Below the pieces are notes generated by a model, which was given only the letters and a program-made list of their open reading frames with translations, was not told the origin of the DNA and did not search any database. From positions 248,001-312,000 of the forward strand of contig JAQMWT010000531.1 of assembly GCA_029834535.1 (NCBI GenBank): DNA of 64,000 nt, written 5' to 3'. The position numbers were made by a program, and so were the translations under genes. Positions 17,844-57,073 of this stretch are shown here, piece by piece (within the stretch, counting starts at the first letter, position 1; each line of letters starts with the position of its first letter). Source of the DNA: Chrysophaeum taylorii. Its lineage: Eukaryota; Sar; Pelagophyceae; Pelagomonadales; Pelagomonadaceae.

Positions 17844-20800
17844 ATGTCGTCGTCTGCCGCCGTTGCGCCACTCGACGACCACGACCAACAAGGCTGTACG
17901 CCGACCACCTTGCAGGCCGTGGACCTGGGATACGAACTCGGCGGCAAAAGGATCCTCGCCAACGTGAATGCCACCTTCGAACCACGAAAGCTCACGGCCC
18001 TCATGGGTAACAAAAAAATTAATTTATCGCAATCACGATTGCGGCGTTGACGTGACCAATGGATGCCTCCAGGTCCGAGTGGCGCTGGCAAGACGACCAT
18101 GCTGAACACCCTGGCCCACCGGGCCTCGGGCTCGCGCACCGGCGAAATCCTCGTCAACGGTACGCGCGTTAAGATGATGATGATGATGATGATGGTCGCC
18201 TCAAAGTTTTTTTTTTTTGTTGGCAATCACAGGCTATCCAAAGTCGCTTCAGAAGATGCGCAGCCTCCTCTCCTTCATGCCGCAAGACGATATCCTGTAC
18301 ATGCAACTCACGATTCGACAGCTCCTGCGAGTGCCGCAACGTCCCAAACGCGACGACGACGACGATGACCGTGTGTTTCGCGTAGGTATTACGCGGCAAT
18401 GATGCGCGTGCCGTCGCGGGCTGACGACGCCCCCCGCGAACGCCGCCTCCACGCTAAAAAGATCGCTCGCGCGGACGCCTTGATGAGGACCCTCGGGATG
18501 GCTCACGTCGCCGACAACGTCCTGTCCGAAGTCTCCGGAGGCCAGCGCAAGCGCGCGTCGGCGGCGGTCGAGTTCATGTCGGATCGTCCTCTACTGTTCA
18601 TGGTACCCGTCTCGCGCGACGACGCGTTGAAGCTTTTTTTTTTGTAGGACGAACCAACGTCGGGCCTCGACTCGGCGACGGCGAAAGCTCTCGTCGATCG
18701 CTTGAGCCGAGCGGCGCACGACGAATCGAGAACCGTGATCTGCACGATCCACCAACCGTCGTGGGAATTGATCGTGAGTTTTTTTGTTTGCGCGTTTTTT
18801 TTTTTTTTTTTACGCGCGCGTCGTCGTCGCTCCGCAGAACAAATTCGACAAGGTCGTGCTGCTCGCGGGGCGCGGCGGCAACCTGGGGGGAACGGTCGTC
18901 TTCGACGCGCCACCGGCACACATCCCCGCGTACTTTGAATCGGGAGGAAGCCCCGTGCCGACCGGGGAGAATCCCGCGGACCACATCATGTACGTTCTCA
19001 ACGACGAGGGCGGCGAGAAGTGGACCGACGTCTGGTCCACCTCCGAGCAGAGAGCCGTCGCTACTCAGCAGGCGACCGAGGAGCGCGCCCGCCTCGAGGC
19101 CAAACTTGACCTGGAGAGCGACGACGCGGACGATTACCCCATCTCGTATTGCGAGCAGTACCGGGTGCTTTTCATCCGCACGCTTCACATCTGGGTCGCC
19201 GATCCGCAGCAGGGCCAGCTCGTCTTCAAGATGATCGCTTTGGTCAACGTCATGATGGCGCTGCTGCTCGCGGGGATACCCGACAATTTATCCAAAGGGA
19301 ACGGACTATTCTTCTACATCGCCGCCCAATTTAACCTCTCGATGATTCCTCTCGTGATTATAATGCCCGAGGAAAGGGCGGTCATCCTCCGCGAGTATCG
19401 CAACGGCGTTTTCTCGGCGACGGCGTACTGGCTCGCGCGCTTTACGCTATGCGTGGGCAACGTCATCGTCATGGCGACGTTCCAGACTCTCTTCTTCTAC
19501 CCGGTCATTGGCTTGCCGCTCACGCCTTTCCCGTCCAAGCTCCTGCGGTGGTGGTGCTTGCAATTCCTCTATCTCGGCTGCGTGATGATGCTCGGGCTCA
19601 CCGCCGGTATCTTCTCGCAGTCGGCGCTCGGCGGTATAAAGGCCGTCATCGCAATCCAGCTTCCATGGATGTCCACAGCAGGCGTCCTGCCGCCGCTCGC
19701 GTATGTCCGACCGACCGTTTTCTTCTTGCGCTATCCTAACTTGTTCACCTGGGCGACCAAGCTAGAGCTCACCATCGCCTTCACGAGCGCCGGCGGCAAG
19801 GCCGACGAAACGCTAAGAGAAGGACTCGGAGTGCATCCGGGGAACGCCGACTCGTGCTTTCAGGCCCTCGCCTTCTGTTTTATCATCATATTCTTCGCCG
19901 GTCTCTTTGCAGTTCACCGGACTCTGAACCGCCCCGATTTGACGGCCGGTGGTCTACGCTCGTTCGCGAAAACTCCGGCGGCGGCGGCGGCGGCGGCGGC
20001 GCAAAGCGTCGCGGCGAGCGACAACTCGTACAAGCCGCTCGCCGCCGGCATCGACGACGAAAAAGGCTCCTTAATTGTCACCTCGAACCCGCTCGTCGGC
20101 GCGCTCGCTTCCTCCGTCGGCTACGGCGCGACCGACGTCGAGGCCCCCGCGGTCGTAAGATCCGTTCCAATCGAAGTGCGATCGGTGACGTACCGCCACA
20201 AACGGGCACCCGAAAAGATCGCCATCAACAACGTGAGCGTCCGCTTCAGCCCGGGCTCTGTCACCATCCTGATGGGCCCGAGTGGCGCGGGAAAGACCAC
20301 GCTCTTGAAATTGCTGTGCGGGAGATTGCCCGCCGGCACGTTTACGGCCGTCGACGGCCGCTCGCAGCCGCTTCTCGAGGGCGAGGTCCTGGTTGACCAT
20401 CGCACGACCGACTTTAGCGCGTTCAAGAAAATCGGCACGCTGACGCCCCAGGACGAGGTATTGACCCCGGAGCTCACCGTCCGCCAGACCCTGCTCTACG
20501 CTGCCGAGCTTCGCTCGCCTCGATCGTGGTCCTACGCTCAAAAAGTGGCTCGCGTCAACGCAGTCCTCGTCAAGCTAGGATTGGACGTCAAGGCCGAAAA
20601 CGTGGTTGGCACCTACCTCAAGGTCGGCATCTCGGGTGGCCAAAAGAAACGTCTCTCGATCGGCATGGATCTCTTAGCCGAGCTCCCGATCATGTTGGTC
20701 GACGAGCCCACGACCGGCTTGGATGCCTCGTCGGCCCTCAATGTTGTTCAGACGCTCATTACGCTTGCCTCGGACCAGTACCGAACAATCATCTGCACCA

Positions 20801-22047
20801 TCCACCAGCCCCCGTGGTCGATGGTCATCCAGTTCGACCAACTCGTCCTGCTCGCTCTCGGGAAGCTCGTCTTTGACGGACCTCCGGTCCGGTTGCCAGA
20901 CTTTCTGCGCGCGGGCGGATCCCCGGTACCGTCGAACGAAAACCCTGCCGACTACGCCATGGTCGTCCTCGTGGCCGATAGCAACGAGAAGTGGCACAAG
21001 CTTCACGACAAGAGAGCCTCCGCCGCCTCCGCCGTCGCCGCGGAAAAGGATACGGAGAAGACGATCGGCAGCGACGACGAGATCTCGTCACTCCTCGCCA
21101 ACTTCGACTCGTACATGGTGTCGGAATTCACGCAGTACACGGTCCTGCTGCGTCGGTTCAGTTACATCTTCATAACCGACCCGGAGCAATTCGAGGCTGT
21201 CTTCTTTCCTTCTTTGATTGTCGGAATCGTCGTCGGTCTCTCGTTCCACAACTTCGGCGTCAATGTTTACCTCGCCGCCTCGATCCTCATGGGTTGCGTC
21301 TCGCACGGCATGCTCAGCTTGAACGCCACCATGCTCAACATCCCATCCGAGCGTCCGCTCATCCTGCGCGAATTCAGGAACGGCACTTATTCCGTTCGCG
21401 CGTATTGGTTCGCGCGCGCTACCGTCTCGTCGTGCGTCGCCGTTTTCCTCAGCTTCCCGTTGACCACCATCTGGTACTCTCTCGTGGGGCTCCCCCTGGC
21501 CTCGGGCGCCATCTTGCACACCTGGCTCGCTTCGACCCTCAACGCGGCCGTATTCTCTCTCATGGGTTGTGTGAGTTCTTCGTCGTGTCTCCCCCTCCGA
21601 CCGCGAACGTGTCTTGAGAGGCGTTATGATCGACGCAGGTGATCGGGCTTGTCTGCAAGACCCCGCTTGCCTCGGCGCAGGTCGCGGATCCCATTGGCAA
21701 CTGCATGCTCGTCTTCTCGGGCGCCATCATCGCCAAGCGGTTCATAAAATCATATCTCATGCCTATCTTTTACGGTCTCCCAATCAACTGGTCGTTCAGC
21801 ATCATTCTTGGCGCCTGCTTGGAACACAAAGGAGAAGACGGCGACGACGTGCTCTCCTACTACAGCGTTCACCCCGGTGACCGGCGGTTCGGTTATTTCG
21901 TGCTTTTCGGGATGTATGTTGCCTGGAACTTTATCGGATATCATCTCGCCAGCTATATGATCAACGGTGCGCCTCGTACCGTTGTTTTTGCCCCCCCCGG
22001 CGATGCGAATCACCCCGTCCCCTTTCGCAGGCCAAGACGAGTCCTAG
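17844..22047 (+). CDS. Full-length ABCG-type transporter, NBD-TMD-NBD-TMD (8 exons)
   Basis: Exons are 17844-18006, 18073-18159, 18233-18326, 18386-18602, 18648-18773, 18838-21570, 21639-21966 and 22031-22047 (3765 nt, 1254 residues). NBD1 has Walker A GPSGAGKTT (55-63), signature SGGQRKR (about 165) and Walker B with DEPTSGLD (188). NBD2 has GPSGAGKTT (about 709), SGGQKKR (about 828) and DEPTTGLD (about 850). Each NBD precedes a hydrophobic block (about 334-590 and 985-1240), the reverse order that defines the ABCG/PDR group. Such pumps export lipids or xenobiotics at the plasma membrane or vacuole. The first five exons are small and cover NBD1. Intron 3 appears to be GC-AG, and the last exon encodes only GQDES plus a stop. 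Confidence 0.9.
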
Positions 22048-26388: not shown

Positions 26389-27351
26389 TCACAAACCAGG
26401 CGGCCTTTGCGGCGGCGGCGGCGGCGGCGGGAGGAGGGGCGTAGAGGATGATGGTCTCGCATCGACAGGGGCACGGCGCGGGCGGTCGTCGTCGGGATGG
26501 TTGGCCACCGCGGCCTTTTTGGCAACAGGAGGCGGCAAGTCCCGCGGGGGGACGACGACCTGCGTGTGCGTCGCGGGGGTTTGGTAGACGCGGACATAAT
26601 CGATCTCGAAGGTGGTGGGGAAGGCGGAGGGGTCAATCCCCATCGTGCCCCCCCAGTTGCCGCCGACGGCGACGTTGAGGATAAGGTGAAATCGCTGGTC
26701 GAAGGGCCACTCGGTCGCGCCGCCGCCGCCAGGCCTCGAAAACTCGAAGAAGGCGTTCCCATCCACAAAGCAGCGGATGGTGTCTGGGTTCCACTCGACC
26801 GAATAGACGTGGAAATCGTCGTGGGCCGTCGGGACGCGGGTAGTCGCCTGGATTTGGGTCTTTATTCGGTGGTTATAGGCAGCCGTGTGGACGGTCGCGT
26901 GAACGACCCCCGGCTCGAAACCAACGTTTTCCATCACATCGATCTCGCCGCTCTCCGGCCACGCGCCGTAGCGTTGGTCTGTCGGCATCAACCAGATCGC
27001 CGGCCAGACGCCGGGTCTTCCCGCGGGAAGTTTGGCGCGGACGTCGACGCGCGCGTACTTCCACGAGGCGCGTCCCTTGGTCAAGAGACGCGCTGATGTG
27101 TAGGGCTCGGTGAGCCAATCTTCCCGTCGCGCCGTCAGGACGAGCTTGCCGTCGCGCACGACGCTGTTGGCTGCGCGCCCGGCCATGTACCACTGCAACT
27201 CGTTGTGCCGCCGATCGTGCGTCCAGTTGTTCGCTTCCACCTGGTAGCCCCATTTGGAGGGGTCGGGGAGCCCCTCCTCCTGGAACTCGTCGCTCCACAC
27301 CAACTTGTACCCCGACTCCTCAAGGGACGCCTGACTACAGGCGTTCATCAT
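26389..27351 (-). CDS. GH16 family beta-glucanase (laminarinase-like)
   Basis: The 320-residue protein contains the GH16 catalytic motif ESGEIDVMENVG (about residues 137-148), with the nucleophile and acid/base Glu separated as in E-I-D-x-x-E. Flanking family strands include YKLVWSDEF at the start, VWPAIWLMP, WPFDQRFHLILNVAVGGNWGG and FEIDYVRVYQ at the end. It should cleave beta-1,3 or mixed-linkage glucans, fitting turnover of laminarin-type reserve or wall glucan. No signal peptide follows the first ATG, so the enzyme looks cytosolic unless an upstream exon is missed. A Pro-rich, Ala-poor tail of about 50 residues ends the protein. Confidence 0.9.
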   Translation of the reverse strand: MMNACSQASLEESGYKLVWSDEFQEEGLPDPSKWGYQVEANNWTHDRRHNELQWYMAGRAANSVVRDGKLVLTARREDWLTEPYTSARLLTKGRASWKYARVDVRAKLPAGRPGVWPAIWLMPTDQRYGAWPESGEIDVMENVGFEPGVVHATVHTAAYNHRIKTQIQATTRVPTAHDDFHVYSVEWNPDTIRCFVDGNAFFEFSRPGGGGATEWPFDQRFHLILNVAVGGNWGGTMGIDPSAFPTTFEIDYVRVYQTPATHTQVVVPPRDLPPPVAKKAAVANHPDDDRPRRAPVDARPSSSTPLLPPPPPPPQRPPGL

Positions 27352-38357: not shown

Positions 38358-39999
38358 ATGTATCCTTGTATCCTTGGTTGTTTCGGTTTACAGTCCTGTG
38401 ATGTCACGCCCCACGTTCCGAAAGATCTTGCGCGGCCACGACAACAATCGCTGATGAGAAGTTGGCAAAAGGACGACAAGTGCCATGGTGACGACGACGA
38501 GCCATTCGCCACGCCAAACCTCGACTTTCCCACAATTCGATGGATGGATCGCCATCACAACAAACGCGTCATCAACAGTATTGCCTTTAACGAACGAAAG
38601 ATTACGCAATTGCGGGAGATGTTTCTTCACTTGGACGTCAACTCCAGCGGCGCCATCGAGGTCAAAGAAATCGAGCAAGCCATGCGCCAGTTGACGGCGC
38701 TCAATCCGCTCTGTCCGTTCGAGCGACACAAAGTCCTCGAAACGTTTGAGTCGAGTGACGGCAATGGCACAGGTTCGAACGTCTTCCTCGCTCTTATGGA
38801 TTGCGAGCTGTGCACACAGGATGCATCGACTGGGACGACTTCGTCCAGGTCATGACATCAGACGCCCGCAGCCACGCGTACCCGCTCTTGAGCGACGAAC
38901 AGAAAGCGAACAATAGCCAGCAGCAGGTCTTCTACGAATTCGCGACGCTCTATCGACGACAGATGCTAATAAACGACATCAAAGCCAAAGCCGATACGAG
39001 CCAGGTCGGCGAGGCCTGCGACATATTCCGAGAACTCTTTGAGATGCAACTTACCTCGGACAAACTCGCCGAAGACGCGCAAACTAAGACCAACAGCAGG
39101 ATTCAGGGCAAACTTCGTGTGCAGGCACGGCTGCTTGCTGCGCGGTCCAAGCGTGCCTCGCGGATCATCATCCTGAAGGAGAAAAAAACTCTAGTTGACG
39201 CGTGTTCATCCCGGAATGACGACACATCTACCGCGCAATGGTCCAAGCGCAATCCTCCCTCTCCTCCTCGTGCGCATCATCACATCGATGTTCGTGAGGG
39301 GGGCAATACAGCAAAAGAAGTGGGTCGAAATGCCTGACGAGAAGGCATTTTTTTTTTCACTTTCGTCGTGTTCAGGTGCGAGCGCTGTTGGATTCGATCG
39401 ACGCGGCGCGCGAGGCAAAGTATAACGGAGTAGTACGCGACAATTCGACGATCCCAAAGGGACCGGGAACAGCACCAAGGTCGCCGCCACCACGGGACAT
39501 CGCGCGCCACTGTTGGCCGTGCGATGTGACTGTGGCCGACAGGTCGTGCCGCACCCTCGAGACACCCGCCCCGGCGCCGGCGATGACCTCTGAGGAGTAT
39601 GTAGCTTCGACTTGGGCGCGCGTCTGTGCGGAAAACAGGGTCAACGCGTCTCTCGCGGAAGAGATCAACTTGACTCCTTCGGTAAAAGAGGCCAGGCTTT
39701 CGGCCGCTTTGCGGAACCCTGCGGCGGCGGCTTGCCCGAGCCCGCCGTGGTCGACGCCGCGGGGCAGAGCGAGCATAGCCGCCACCGCCACCACCAGCAT
39801 GGCGTTCAATCACAGGAGTGCGCGAGATTCGAACTTGAAGCGCAGCGGCGTGTTTGTCGAGCTCGCTACCAAGATCAGCAAGCGATCGGCGACACGCGTG
39901 GTTCCGGTCATGGCGCCTGGAAAGCCGCTCGGCCCTCCCCCAACAAAGTCCCGACATCCTCATAAAGAGACGCGAAGCCGACGCCTCATATTATTTTGA
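38358..39999 (+). CDS. EF-hand calcium-binding protein (3 exons)
   Basis: Exons are 38358-38772, 38820-39319 and 39376-39999 (512 residues). Intron 1 (47 nt) is convincing because removal rebuilds an EF-hand loop, SDGNGTG|CIDWDDFVQVM. A first EF-hand precedes it (LHLDVNSSGAIEVKEIEQAM). Intron 2 (56 nt, GTGGGT to GTTCAG) joins NTAKE to VRALLDSIDAAREAKYNG. The tail has a helical segment (SLAEEINLTPSVKEARLSAALRN) and a basic end. An alternative start, MRSWQKDDK at 38454, would remove 32 residues that look less protein-like. The calcium-responsive partner is unknown. Confidence 0.75.
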
Positions 40000-40129
40000 T
40001 AAAATCTGTCACTATACTTAGCACAGCGACCACCAAGTGTCGTCGACGGTCGTTTTTTTTTTTGCCTCAATATAATGTAGCGAGAGGCGCGTCGCGAGAT
40101 GAAGAAACACCACGTCATATTAAAGAAGG

Positions 40130-40190
40130 AGCAGTCGTAGTCTTCAGGACCAAGGTGAATTTGTGACCGTAGATCCGTCATTGCACCAAC
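40130..40190 (-). promoter_or_regulatory. Candidate SECIS element of the SELENOS gene
   Basis: Read on the minus strand, ATGA (40181-40178) is followed by GGATCTACGG, an apical loop with AAA (40162-40160), then CCTTGGTCC, which pairs back with two internal mismatches or bulges, then TGAA (40146-40143). This is the eukaryotic SECIS plan: a non-canonical UGA/GA quartet, a stem of about ten pairs and unpaired adenines in the loop. It lies about 53 nt past the UGA codon, close to the known lower limit for SECIS spacing. I folded it by hand only. Confidence 0.65.
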
Positions 40191-40225
40191 CGGAGCAGCG
40201 CCTCGTCCTCGCGACCGGCAGGCGG

Positions 40226-40606
40226 CTAGCCTCAGCCGCCGGCGCGCGGGTAGCGACCCTTTATCGACGGGCGATATCCGGCCCTGCCGCCGGCGCCGTC
40301 GAGCGGATTGTGCGAGGGTGGTCGCGCCGTGTGCTGGTTGGAAGGGCGTTTTGGGGGCGGTTTCTTTGCCGCCTCCTCGTCGTGCCGTCGTTGCTGTTCT
40401 TCGCGCACTCGTAGCCGTTCGACGTCGAGTACACGACGTCGTTCGGGATCGTCCGCTGCCTTCATCCGGCGTCTGTGCTGCGCTCGGACCAACGCCTCGG
40501 GCCAGTACTCGGGGTGGGACGCAAACAACACCAATACAAAGCCCGCAAGCAGGAACCAACCGTACCGCTGCAGGAGCAATGTGACGTGTTCGAGCAAATC
40601 TACCAT
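40226..40606 (-). CDS. SELENOS: Selenoprotein S (VIMP), UGA-encoded selenocysteine at the penultimate position
   Basis: From the ATG at 40606 the frame reads MVDLLEHVTLLLQRYGWFLL, a membrane span, then a charged helix (DVERLRVREEQQRRHDEE). A Gly/Pro tail follows (NPLDGAGGRAGYRP, then YPRAGG), then TGA (40234-40232), GGC and TAG (40228-40226). The C-terminus GG-U-G is exactly that of animal SELENOS (GGUG), as is the NPLxGxGG motif upstream, so the TGA is read as selenocysteine and the protein has 126 residues. SELENOS is an ER membrane reductase and p97/Derlin partner in ER-associated degradation. A SECIS-like hairpin follows. Human SELENOS is longer (189) mainly in the helix. Confidence 0.9.
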
Positions 40607-40746: not shown

Positions 40747-41519
40747 TTAGCACAGTCGACACGAGGCCCATGGGACGCGAGACGCGCGGATCTTCGCCTT
40801 GTCCTTATTAACGATATCGATCGCCTCCCGGAGTCTCAAATTGTGCTCTTCCTTCTCCATCAAGGCGGCCTGAAGAAAGAGGACGGAGTGCGACGATAGG
40901 AAAGGAAGGGCCGACGCACCTGCATGGCGGCGTATTCGTCCTTGATCTCGCGGGTGTGGCGGCCGATATGGTAGTGGAGGCGCATGGTGAAGGTGACCAT
41001 GTCGGCGTCGTCGCGGAGCGAGTCGGGTATCATGTCGAGTTTGTCGTTATGCGAGCAGTCGAGGACGTCGAGAGTGTCGAGACTGCCGATGTCGGTGGGG
41101 AGCGACTCGAGTCTGTTGTGGTGCAGCACGATGACTCTCAGAACTTGGAGGGAACCGAGAGCCGCAGGCACGGTGGTGAGGCGGTTGTGGTTGGCAATTA
41201 CTTCCTCGAGGAAAAGGCAGTCGCCGAGCTCGGGGGGGAGCCACGTCAGGTTGTTGAAGGCGCAGTTGAGGACGCGCAGCCGCGTGCAGGTGCCGAGTTC
41301 CGCGGGCAGACTCTCGAGCGTGTTGTGCGAGACGTCGAGGTGGGCGAGGAGCTCGAGGCGAAACATGTCGCCGGGAAGGCGGACCAGGTTGTTGTGTTCG
41401 AGCCGCAGGCTTCGCGTTCGCGGGTCGATCCGCACGTCGTCGAGGCTCCGCCAGCCCCTCATCGAGAGGTCCACTACCCCCACGTAAGCAGCATCATCAT
41501 CATTGTCCTCATCGTTCAT
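40747..41519 (-). CDS. Leucine-rich-repeat protein with C-terminal helix (2 exons)
   Basis: Exons 41519-40920 and 40869-40747 give 240 residues. About six LRRs of 23 residues run from 20 to 165, in the Shoc2/Ras-suppressor type (LPxxLxxLxxLxxLxLxxNxL), for example LPAELGTCTRLRVLNCAFNN and VPAALGSLQVLRVIVLHHNR. The 50-nt intron (GTGCGT to CTTCAG) joins EYAAMQ to AALMEKEEHNLRLREAIDI, continuing a charged helix. Without splicing the frame ends in a Phe/Pro tail. LRR proteins of this type act as binding scaffolds in signalling; the partner is unknown. Confidence 0.85.
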
Positions 41520-53252: not shown

Positions 53253-53933
53253 AAAATAATAACACGCCCCTAACGAATGGACTCCTTCTTGTTCAAGACT
53301 ATTATGGTTGTCCTCGTCGCCAACGAACTCCTAACAAAACATCATCCACTGCGCAACCCCCCCCCCCTCCAAAGCGCACTCTCATCACTTAAGTCTCTCT
53401 CCTTCCCTTCTTCTGAGGCACGCGCTACTTTCATCATCATCATCATGATGATGATGATGATGATGTGTTGCTTCCTTCTTCGCGCACAACTCTTGTTGTC
53501 TTTTAGTTACGACGCGTGGCGGGGCTTTGAATGAACGAATGAATGAATGAATCATGCTCATAGACGATGATGCGTCTTGTGAGGCATGACAGCACTACTA
53601 TGAACGTAAACGGATGATGGATGGCACCACCACACTCCGTGACGGAGTATGTTTTGGCGTATCATGATGGAAGAAAGAGCCAAGTAGTATTCTTCGAACT
53701 AAACTCGACGCGACTTGAACCGCCAGGTGTGTGTGTGATCATCATCAACAACCGAGAGCGAAGAACTGCGGGTATCGCCGCAGCAGCAGGAGATGTGCTT
53801 ATCTCAATACTGCGCAACCAGCCGGCAGTCCGGTATATATACCGTGTGGTGCGTTTTTTCACACACCACCCTTCCAGCAGCCAACCGGGATATTGAGTGT
53901 ATTATTATTAAAGTTGCATTTTCGCGCATTGCC
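53253..53933. other. Intergenic region with self-complementary CAT/ATG repeat
   Basis: A (CAT)n tract runs into (GAT)n at about 53432-53464, giving a hairpin-capable inverted repeat. GAAT units lie near 53530-53552. The frame upstream of 53934 is open from 53793 but reads as untranslated leader. Confidence 0.5.
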
Positions 53934-55265
53934 ATGAACTCGCTGCATGATGTGGTCGTGGAACGCGATGTCGTCTCGATCGGCGACAAGACGTACCCGT
54001 TCCTCGATATCCTCGGGGTGCGGAGCTATACGAAGGGCGTTGAGGTCGTGTTGTGCGAAAAGCCGGGCGTCGGGTGCATGGGTGGGTCTGGAGAGCGACG
54101 GCTCCGGTCCGAAAAAGTCGCGGTTGAGGACCCCTCCGCCGTCGCGAGCGAGGTGCGTGCGGCCGTTAAGGCGGCAACACCTAATGCGCCGAACCGCGTT
54201 TTGGTGTTCGTGAATCCGTCGAGCGGGACGGGGCGCGCGTCAAAGGTTTACCAGCGTTCGGTGAAACCGGTGCTCCGAGCGGCGGGCATAGAGATCGATC
54301 TCGTCGTGACGAGCCGCGAAAACGAGGCGTTCGAGAAGTGTGCGGGCGGCTTCGATGACCCGCCGGGCGGGATTCTGGTCGTCGGCGGCGACGGCACGCT
54401 GAGCGAGGTCGTACGCGGCCTCGTCGCGCGCGACGCCGATCTCCTCGCCATCCCGCTCGGTCACGCGCCGGGTGGCACCGGTAACGCGTGCGCGCAGTCG
54501 ATCGCCCACCAGTGTGGCGACGCGTGCTCGGGCGTGGACGCGGCCTATTACGTCGCCAAGGGTACGACGCGGCCGCTGGATCTCCTCCGGGTCGAACTCG
54601 CCGACGGTTCGGTCGTCCCTTCGTTCCTTTCGATCGAGTGGGCAATTATCGCCGACATCGACCTCGGCTCGGATTCGCTCCGGTGCTTAGGCGACGCGCG
54701 ATTCACCCTGGCGGCTATCTACCGCTTACTATGCCTCCGAAAGTACTGCGGCACCCTATCCTATTTGCCGGAGGAGGAGGAGGAGGAGGTTTCGCGCGAG
54801 AAGACGCCCGACTCGACGAGCTTTTGTTCCACGAGACTCCCGCCACTCGCCGAACCCCTGCCGGATTCGTGGGTCCAAGTGGAGGCCACGACCTTCCAGT
54901 TAGCCATGGCCCTCAACCTCTCACACATAGACGCGACCACGCTCCTCGCCCCTCGCGCGCGGCTCGACGACGGCGCGATCCACCTCGTGTGGACCGCGGA
55001 AGGCACGGGGTGCTGCGCGGCTCTGAACCTTGCGGACACCATGATAAAGTTTGAGGACGGCACGCATATCGACAAGACCTCCGTCAACACTATCAAGTGC
55101 CGGGCCTTCCGGCTCGTCCCCAGCCGCGCCGACACGAGCCGCCTCGCGATCGACGGCGAAGAGGTGCCCAACGCGGCCATCCAGGCCGCGGTAGTTCCGA
55201 GGACCCTCCGCGTCTTCACCGCGCCACAACATAACTACGGCGCCATAACCAGGCAACCCCACTAG
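53934..55265 (+). CDS. SPHK: Sphingosine kinase
   Basis: The protein has 443 residues from MNSLHDVVVERDVV; an earlier in-frame ATG at 53793 adds sequence that is not family-like. The DAGK/SphK catalytic blocks are present: C1 FVNPSSGTGRASKV (about 92), C2 VVGGDGTLSEVVRGL (about 149), C3 LGHAPGGTGNACAQS (about 174), and the sphingosine-kinase-specific C4 SIEWAIIADIDLGSDSLRCLGDARFTL (about 233) with RKYCGTLSYLP. The enzyme phosphorylates sphingoid bases to a signalling lipid. A short Glu run with a Ser/Thr insert (EEEEEEV) follows residue 280. Its stop overlaps the stop of the convergent ankyrin gene. Confidence 0.92.
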   Translation: MNSLHDVVVERDVVSIGDKTYPFLDILGVRSYTKGVEVVLCEKPGVGCMGGSGERRLRSEKVAVEDPSAVASEVRAAVKAATPNAPNRVLVFVNPSSGTGRASKVYQRSVKPVLRAAGIEIDLVVTSRENEAFEKCAGGFDDPPGGILVVGGDGTLSEVVRGLVARDADLLAIPLGHAPGGTGNACAQSIAHQCGDACSGVDAAYYVAKGTTRPLDLLRVELADGSVVPSFLSIEWAIIADIDLGSDSLRCLGDARFTLAAIYRLLCLRKYCGTLSYLPEEEEEEVSREKTPDSTSFCSTRLPPLAEPLPDSWVQVEATTFQLAMALNLSHIDATTLLAPRARLDDGAIHLVWTAEGTGCCAALNLADTMIKFEDGTHIDKTSVNTIKCRAFRLVPSRADTSRLAIDGEEVPNAAIQAAVVPRTLRVFTAPQHNYGAITRQPH

Positions 55266-55762: not shown

Positions 55763-57073
55763 ATGAGACGGCGCATGTTGCTGAGGCGCGTGTCGGCGGT
55801 GGCCCAGAAAGCACACAAAAAAAAGTCGTACGAGCCCGCTCCTCTGGGACCGTTGTCGGCGGCCGCCAAGATAAAGGAAGCGCAGTATGGCGCCGAGAAC
55901 TACCATCCCGTCCCTGTGGTCCTCGCTTCCGGCAAGGGCGCCAAGGTGTGGGACGTTGACGGGCGCGAGTACCTCGACTTTCTGTCGGCGTATTCGGCGG
56001 TCAATCAGGGCCACTGCCACCCCAAGATCGTCGCGGCGCTCAAGGCTCAGGCCGAAACCCTCACTCTGAGTTCGCGCGCCTTCCACAACGATCGGCTCGG
56101 CGAATGGTGCGAGTACGCGACCCGCGTCTTTGGGTTCGAACGCCTCCTCCCCATGAACACGGGTGTCGAGGCCTCGGAGACGAGCGTCAAGCTCGCGCGA
56201 CGCTGGAGCTACGCTGTGAAAAAAGTGCCCGAGGGCACGGCGCGCGTCGTCGTCGCGAACAACAACTTCTGGGGTCGAAGTATTGGCGCAATTTCCGCGT
56301 CGACCGACCCCACGTCCTACGGCGGCTTCGGGCCCCTCGCTCCGGGCTTCGACTGGGTACCCTTTGGCGACGCCCAGGCCCTCGAGGACCTCCTCGAACG
56401 CCAGGCCGAACGCACCGCCTGCGTCATGCTCGAGCCTATCCAGGGCGAGGCCGGCGTCATCGTGCCGCCCGAAGGATACCTCGCCAAGTGCCGGGACCTC
56501 TGCGACCGCTACAACGTCCTCCTCACCTTCGACGAGGTTCAGACTGGCCTCGGCCGCACGGGACGCCTTTTAGCCTGTCACCACGACGACGTCAAGCCGG
56601 ACATCCTCGTCCTCGGTAAGGCTCTCAGCGGTGGCCTCCTTCCCGTGTCCGCCGTCCTCGCGGATTCGCACGTCATGTTGACGATTCGTCCGGGGGAGCA
56701 CGGCTCAACCTACGGGGGAAACCCCGTCGCCTGTCGCGTCGCCAAAGCCGCGATTCAAACCCTCGTCGAAGAGGACATGATCTCCAATGCCCGGGACCGC
56801 GGCGCCGAGCTCGAGGCCGGCTTGAGAGACCTCGTCCAGAGGCGCGACGTCGCCCTCGACACCCGCGGCCGCGGCCTTCTCAGAGCCCTCGTCATCGACC
56901 CCGACCGCGTCGATGCCTGGGACGTCTGCCTCGCACTCCGCGACAACGGCCTTATCACCAAGCCCACGCACAACAACGTTATCCGCCTCGCCCCGCCCCT
57001 CGTCATCTCCTCCGATGAAATCAAGCAGGCCCTTGCCGCCTTCGACACCGCCCTCGCCTACTTCGACGACTGA
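55763..57073 (+). CDS. OAT: Ornithine aminotransferase
   Basis: The 436-residue single-exon enzyme has a basic, Arg-rich N-terminus (MRRRMLLRRVSAVAQKAHKK) suited to mitochondrial import. Family blocks are complete: EYLDFLSAYSAVNQGHCHP, MNTGVEASETSVKLARRW, FWGRSIGAISASTDPTSYGG, EPIQGEAGVIVPPEGYL, FDEVQTGLGRTGR and the PLP lysine in ILVLGKALSGGLLPVSAVL (about 286), then GEHGSTYGGNPVACRVA. It interconverts ornithine plus 2-oxoglutarate with glutamate semialdehyde. A (TATC)n run of about 24 nt ends four bases before the ATG. Confidence 0.96.
   Translation: MRRRMLLRRVSAVAQKAHKKKSYEPAPLGPLSAAAKIKEAQYGAENYHPVPVVLASGKGAKVWDVDGREYLDFLSAYSAVNQGHCHPKIVAALKAQAETLTLSSRAFHNDRLGEWCEYATRVFGFERLLPMNTGVEASETSVKLARRWSYAVKKVPEGTARVVVANNNFWGRSIGAISASTDPTSYGGFGPLAPGFDWVPFGDAQALEDLLERQAERTACVMLEPIQGEAGVIVPPEGYLAKCRDLCDRYNVLLTFDEVQTGLGRTGRLLACHHDDVKPDILVLGKALSGGLLPVSAVLADSHVMLTIRPGEHGSTYGGNPVACRVAKAAIQTLVEEDMISNARDRGAELEAGLRDLVQRRDVALDTRGRGLLRALVIDPDRVDAWDVCLALRDNGLITKPTHNNVIRLAPPLVISSDEIKQALAAFDTALAYFDD

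Follow-up and report, generated by a model that had tools for sequence, protein, structure and literature searches.

A short selenoprotein S gene with a probable penultimate selenocysteine codon and a candidate SECIS hairpin downstream

The minus-strand frame 40606-40226 encodes, with high probability and leaving aside the identity of a hairpin downstream, a selenoprotein S (SELENOS) in which UGA is decoded as selenocysteine (Sec). Positions are those of the window, the whole stretch of 64,000 nucleotides that was analysed. The frame of 126 codons starts with ATG at 40606 and ends with GGC GGC TGA GGC TAG: TGA, the proposed Sec codon 125, at 40234-40232; GGC at 40231-40229; and TAG, proposed from its codon context as the true stop after one Gly codon, at 40228-40226. 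Translation with Sec gives 126 residues ending ...NPLDGAGGRAGYRPSIKGRYPRAGGUG, and the standard reading gives 124. Frame, codons and peptide are exactly those described, on this strand, in the initial annotation. The codon usage score of the frame is +0.012, and the remaining forward frames score -0.307 and -0.508. One reverse frame, at -0.013, is not separable from the SELENOS frame, so that codon usage is only mildly helpful as support.

Family assignment comes from the Pfam profile Selenoprotein_S (PF06936), the sole family matched by the protein in a search up to E 10. The match (E 7.4e-7 for the 126-residue form; E 6.6e-7 for the 124-residue form) is significant at a threshold of 1e-3. 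In bits it sits right at the curated cut-off of 29.8: 29.7 for the 126-residue form and 29.8, rounded, for the 124-residue form and for a 137-residue form. The two halves of the protein match the profile independently and in the correct order: the first 99 residues alone score 26.7 bits over profile positions 27-103, and the last 37 residues alone score 9.5 bits over positions 161-192 of 192. The E-value of this second match is 1.2 over 24,736 models, or about 5e-5 by our own division if a single family is named in advance. The last 27 residues searched alone gave no match to PF06936, and the profile matched nothing in 14 control genomes.

Alignment to SELENOS had been proposed as a check, and the tail does match that of the human protein through GG-U-G-stop. 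BLASTP against a human SELENOS sequence checked over residues 49-122 gave E 1e-8 for the single comparison, with 27% identity (45 of 169 columns) and 51 gaps. The C-terminal tail (40309-40226), NPL-G-GG...RP...GGUG, is common to the two proteins; the residues NPL-G-GG-A-RP-G-P-GG-Sec-Gly stay in register to the last one. With the final GG-U-G left out, the tail alignment was equalled by 1 of 10,000 shuffles. A PDB sequence search returned a best E of 0.31 and no member of the Selenoprotein S family. The 124-residue protein was also sought in prokaryotic genome contigs (210 pattern matches) and viral contigs (7 pattern matches), with no confirmed relative in either; these collections carry no information on algae.

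The context of the UGA is singular within the window. Of the 1330 TGAs counted on both strands and in all frames, 85 precede a single codon of whatever kind and then a stop; in two that codon is Gly, and only the SELENOS TGA stands in Gly-Gly-TGA-Gly-stop. The other TGA-Gly-stop, at 26676 on the plus strand, follows an Arg-rich frame that has no SELENOS-like tail. In human SELENOS, too, the in-frame UGA is followed by one codon, for Gly. TGA terminates three of the four Pfam-supported frames checked (mechanical ORF ends, some possibly shifted by introns), and therefore seems not to be reassigned in general. Together, the profile match, the tail alignment to the human protein, and the single occurrence of this codon context make Sec insertion at 40234-40232 very likely, as judged from sequence. 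These results uphold both the SELENOS identity and the penultimate Sec of the initial annotation. The initial annotation is also reasonable in warning that the Sec would escape automated annotation, a problem already known, since PMC3628699 reports Sec to be absent from 22 of 36 SelS protein records. Routine annotation would shorten this product by two residues and label it a non-selenoprotein.

The remainder of the protein has the expected predicted architecture: a single transmembrane helix at the amino terminus and, after it, a charged helical part, presumably cytosolic. Kyte-Doolittle hydropathy peaks at a mean of 1.8 over residues 10-28 (40579-40523), and the AlphaFold2 single-sequence model places helices at residues 2-30, 35-50, and 54-81, with none thereafter (mean pLDDT 72, pTM 0.29). 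The tail is Gly-rich in sequence and ends in GG-Sec-Gly. The model thus agrees with a protein that crosses the membrane once and has a flexible carboxyl-terminal end.

Two traits of human SELENOS, neither of them taken as family-defining, are missing, which was unexpected. The 124 residues that precede the UGA include no Cys, and hence no counterpart of Cys174, the partner of Sec in the human protein. Also missing are the alanines of the p97/VCP-interacting motif RX5AAX2R: human RQEALAAARLK aligns with RRRVLDVERLR. Val-Glu here replaces the two alanines, so recruitment of p97 through a motif of this type is doubtful. Without Cys there can be no internal selenosulfide bond of the human type, and a redox role would need a partner protein or a lone selenol. 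The bond proposed for human SelS joins Cys174 and Sec188, in a region described as the most conserved part of the protein (PMC3628699).

Features in common with human SELENOS (VIMP) are the predicted amino-terminal membrane helix, a charged, presumably cytosolic part, the NPL-G-GG...RP...GG-Sec-Gly end, and penultimate Sec; the human protein has 189 residues rather than 126. Human SELENOK likewise is single-pass with GG-Sec-Gly near its end and no partner Cys, but belongs to a separate Pfam family, SelK_SelG (PF10961), to which the protein described here gave no match up to E 10. The gene is, from its sequence, a further member of a known family: algal SELENOS selenoproteins are already published. 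PMC7539508 counts SELENOS among 42 algal selenoprotein families, as one of the least widespread and almost exclusively in Sec form; these algal proteins were compared by description. For Aureococcus, 59 predicted selenoproteins are given in PMC6627142 and PMC5917014. A literature search that was not aimed at this point alone found no description of a Cys-free algal SELENOS.

Published eukaryotic SECIS elements combine an upper stem with a core of AUGA..GA and with AA in the loop (PMC11227280, PMC3473315). The hairpin named as a candidate SECIS in the initial annotation is present at 40192-40132 on the minus strand, with ATGA at 40181-40178, AAA at 40162-40160 in a 9-nt loop, and TGA at 40146-40144 (the first letters of TGAA). 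Its lower stem, CGGTTG/CGACTG, has 6 bp; its upper stem has, by descriptor, nine pairs at -5.5 kcal/mol, with one bulge and one mismatch, and eight pairs in the predicted fold. The SECIS claim itself stood in part. The hairpin exists, matches a type I descriptor, and has its upper stem in some of the predicted folds; it lacks an Rfam match, and its spacing is short. This leaves a fair candidate, for which we consider the chances of being the actual SECIS about even or slightly better.

The spacing, 53 nt from the first base of UGA to ATGA, is at the published lower limit: PMC3316567 gives 207-5207 nt for mammals, and a minimum of 51-111 nt from experiments on Dio1. In human SELENOS the SECIS occupies nt 320-441 of the 3' UTR.

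How readily would such a hairpin arise by chance? The descriptor scan of 700 nt from the UGA found one type I site, the ATGA at 40181. The limits for upper stem and loop came from part of PMC11227280, a paper on Asgard archaeal SECIS elements; two rules, the location of AA within the loop and the obligatory terminal pairs, were set by us. In 2000 dinucleotide shuffles of the 300-nt 3' flank, 274 had any descriptor match, 141 had an ATGA match, and 57 had a match as good as the candidate, or 11 if an equally long lower stem was required. In a set of 426 window tiles, each 300 nt long and including the one that holds the candidate, 16 had an ATGA match and six an equally good one. A count on both window strands gave 17 sites (seven with ATGA) that reach the pairs and energy of the candidate, and a lower stem of at least 6 is present in two of the seven equally good ATGA sites, again including the candidate. 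In all of these counts the thresholds for "as good as" are the candidate's own values, and the gap ranges for the lower stem were chosen by us; the counts thus lean in its favour.

Folding gave mixed results. For three pieces of sequence, 198, 143, and 110 of 200 shuffles folded at least as well. Minimum-energy folds contain the upper stem for the 117-nt and 49-nt pieces, and lack it for the 67-nt and 141-nt pieces. A looser energy scan found 97 sites that reach -5.5 kcal/mol in 128,000 strand bases, and 57 that score -9 kcal/mol or better. Energy scanning of 1400 nt turned up two other RTGA sites more stable than the candidate, both on the minus strand. One is a GTGA at 40012, which scores -12.2 kcal/mol and lies 222 nt from the UGA; the other is an ATGA at 39209 with -8.9 kcal/mol. 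In view of the 57 sites at -9 kcal/mol or better, and of the long irregular stems of both sites, neither was preferred. The looser scan required closing pairs to form, and the one at 40012 is a non-standard A with G.

Rfam covariance models gave no SECIS match when the window was searched at the gathering score, or when 801 bases were searched with E allowed to reach 10, a null result of unmeasured sensitivity for which no positive control was obtained. RF00031 had no match in any of 14 control genomes. Viral glutathione peroxidases from IMG/VR were sought as UGA-Sec positive controls, but Sec was found in none of 21 loci: the Sec position holds Cys in seven, Leu in 12, and Ala in two. Rfam searches on nine of the 21 loci gave no match. 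As a separate observation, the IMG/VR contigs L008-L019 encode a glutathione-peroxidase-like protein in which Leu replaces the catalytic Cys or Sec (motif IASKLGY), and which has CNQFGKQEP where the sequence examined extends that far; L020 and L021 have Ala at the catalytic position.

The explanation that competes most directly accepts the Sec-encoding SELENOS gene and regards the hairpin at 40192-40132 as a product of chance, with the real SECIS elsewhere in the 3' UTR or beyond a 3' UTR intron. We consider this a serious possibility, if somewhat on the improbable side. It accords with the silence of Rfam, a spacing at the published lower limit, and the unremarkable folding energy, as well as with the equally good descriptor matches in six of 426 tiles and the 97 sites of equal energy in the looser scan of both strands. 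It must nonetheless accommodate the fact that the hairpin is the sole type I descriptor match within 700 nt of the UGA, and the sites that might replace it, 40012 and 39209, although more stable, were judged poor SECIS shapes for their long irregular stems.

Other explanations dispense with Sec or with the family. The protein might be an ordinary SELENOS-like one that stops at the UGA, with GGC-TAG and the hairpin being accidents or remnants of a lost selenoprotein. The lack of covariance-model support for a SECIS would be expected of such a gene, and the missing Cys partner and p97-motif alanines would suit it; we nevertheless think it unlikely, given a Gly-Gly-TGA-Gly-stop found at one of 1330 TGAs and in exact register with the human end, and the almost exclusive Sec form of algal SELENOS (PMC7539508). 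Membership in SELENOK, or in another single-pass family with a GGU tail, is suggested by the GGUG end and the want of a partner Cys, which resemble SELENOK. It is very improbable: Pfam returns PF06936 and no SelK_SelG, whereas human SELENOK matches only PF10961 (E 2.8e-29). Finally, the frame might be no gene at all, its profile match reflecting a hydrophobic stretch and Arg/Glu-rich composition. A score at the Pfam cut-off and a codon usage shared with a reverse frame are what this would predict, but the profile is matched by two distinct stretches in their proper order, and the tail agrees with the human one up to the final residue; we judge it extremely improbable. Sec-decoded SELENOS remains the preferred reading, with the hairpin at 40192-40132 its best SECIS candidate.

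A second, GC-rich hairpin lies at the UGA itself (40240-40221, minus strand). Its eight pairs, GGCGGCUG-AGGC-UAGCCGCC with one G-U pair, enclose both UGA and UAG. Shuffling equalled a 26-nt piece containing it in 9 of 200 cases and a 57-nt piece in 105 of 200, and a perfect hairpin of at least seven pairs surrounds 29 of the 1330 window TGAs. This structure, for which the evidence is weak, might be a recoding aid. The SL1 hairpin of human SelS mRNA is likewise near the Sec codon and a possible recoding aid; the resemblance is one of position and not of form, and SL1 lies 9 nt past the UGA (PMC3628699), whereas the hairpin here encloses the UGA.

In mammals, a Gly-Gly C-terminus marks truncated SELENOS for KLHDC1/KLHDC2-type ligases. 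By analogy, failure to decode the UGA here would yield a product ending ...RAGG, whose Gly-Gly may act as a C-degron. In successful decoding, the gene, presumably nuclear, would yield a short selenoprotein S: ribosomes would read UGA 40234-40232 as Sec, add Gly, and stop at UAG, with the 3' UTR hairpin as the best candidate for directing Sec insertion. The product would cross the membrane once, with a helical part in the cytosol and a flexible Gly-rich tail that ends in GGUG, and its Sec would act either on its own or together with another protein. Human SELENOS is located in the ER membrane, its tail facing the cytosol (PMC3628699), and a similar location is plausible here.

The absence of Cys bears on the role of Sec in SELENOS, since Cys174 is needed for the redox switch that has been proposed in human SELENOS. 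A natural homologue that has no Cys could separate this switch from other roles of the tail, including that of a Gly-Gly C-degron after failed decoding. We offer tentatively, as an idea that may well prove wrong, that this is a minimal Cys-free SELENOS, which lost or never had the partner Cys and the p97-motif alanines, and which would use a lone selenol as does SELENOK; its mRNA would carry a SECIS unusually near the UGA and a hairpin that encloses the Sec codon. If so, the conserved core of SELENOS would be the membrane anchor together with the GG-Sec-Gly tail, with a truncated form ending in a Gly-Gly degron; the selenosulfide switch and p97 binding would lie outside that core.

A leucine-rich-repeat gene (41519-40747; 240 codons when spliced; LRR_8, E 1.1e-14) precedes SELENOS on the minus strand, and its TAA ends at 40747, about 140 bases before the SELENOS start. 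It contains a probable 50-base GT-AG intron (40919-40870), with splice sites that we chose to keep the frame open. Continuation of the frame through this intron suggests that the SELENOS locus is eukaryotic nuclear DNA. Elsewhere in the window, long plus-strand frames at 55763-57073, 53793-55265, and 18784-21642 match the class III aminotransferase, diacylglycerol kinase, and ABC transporter families, respectively.
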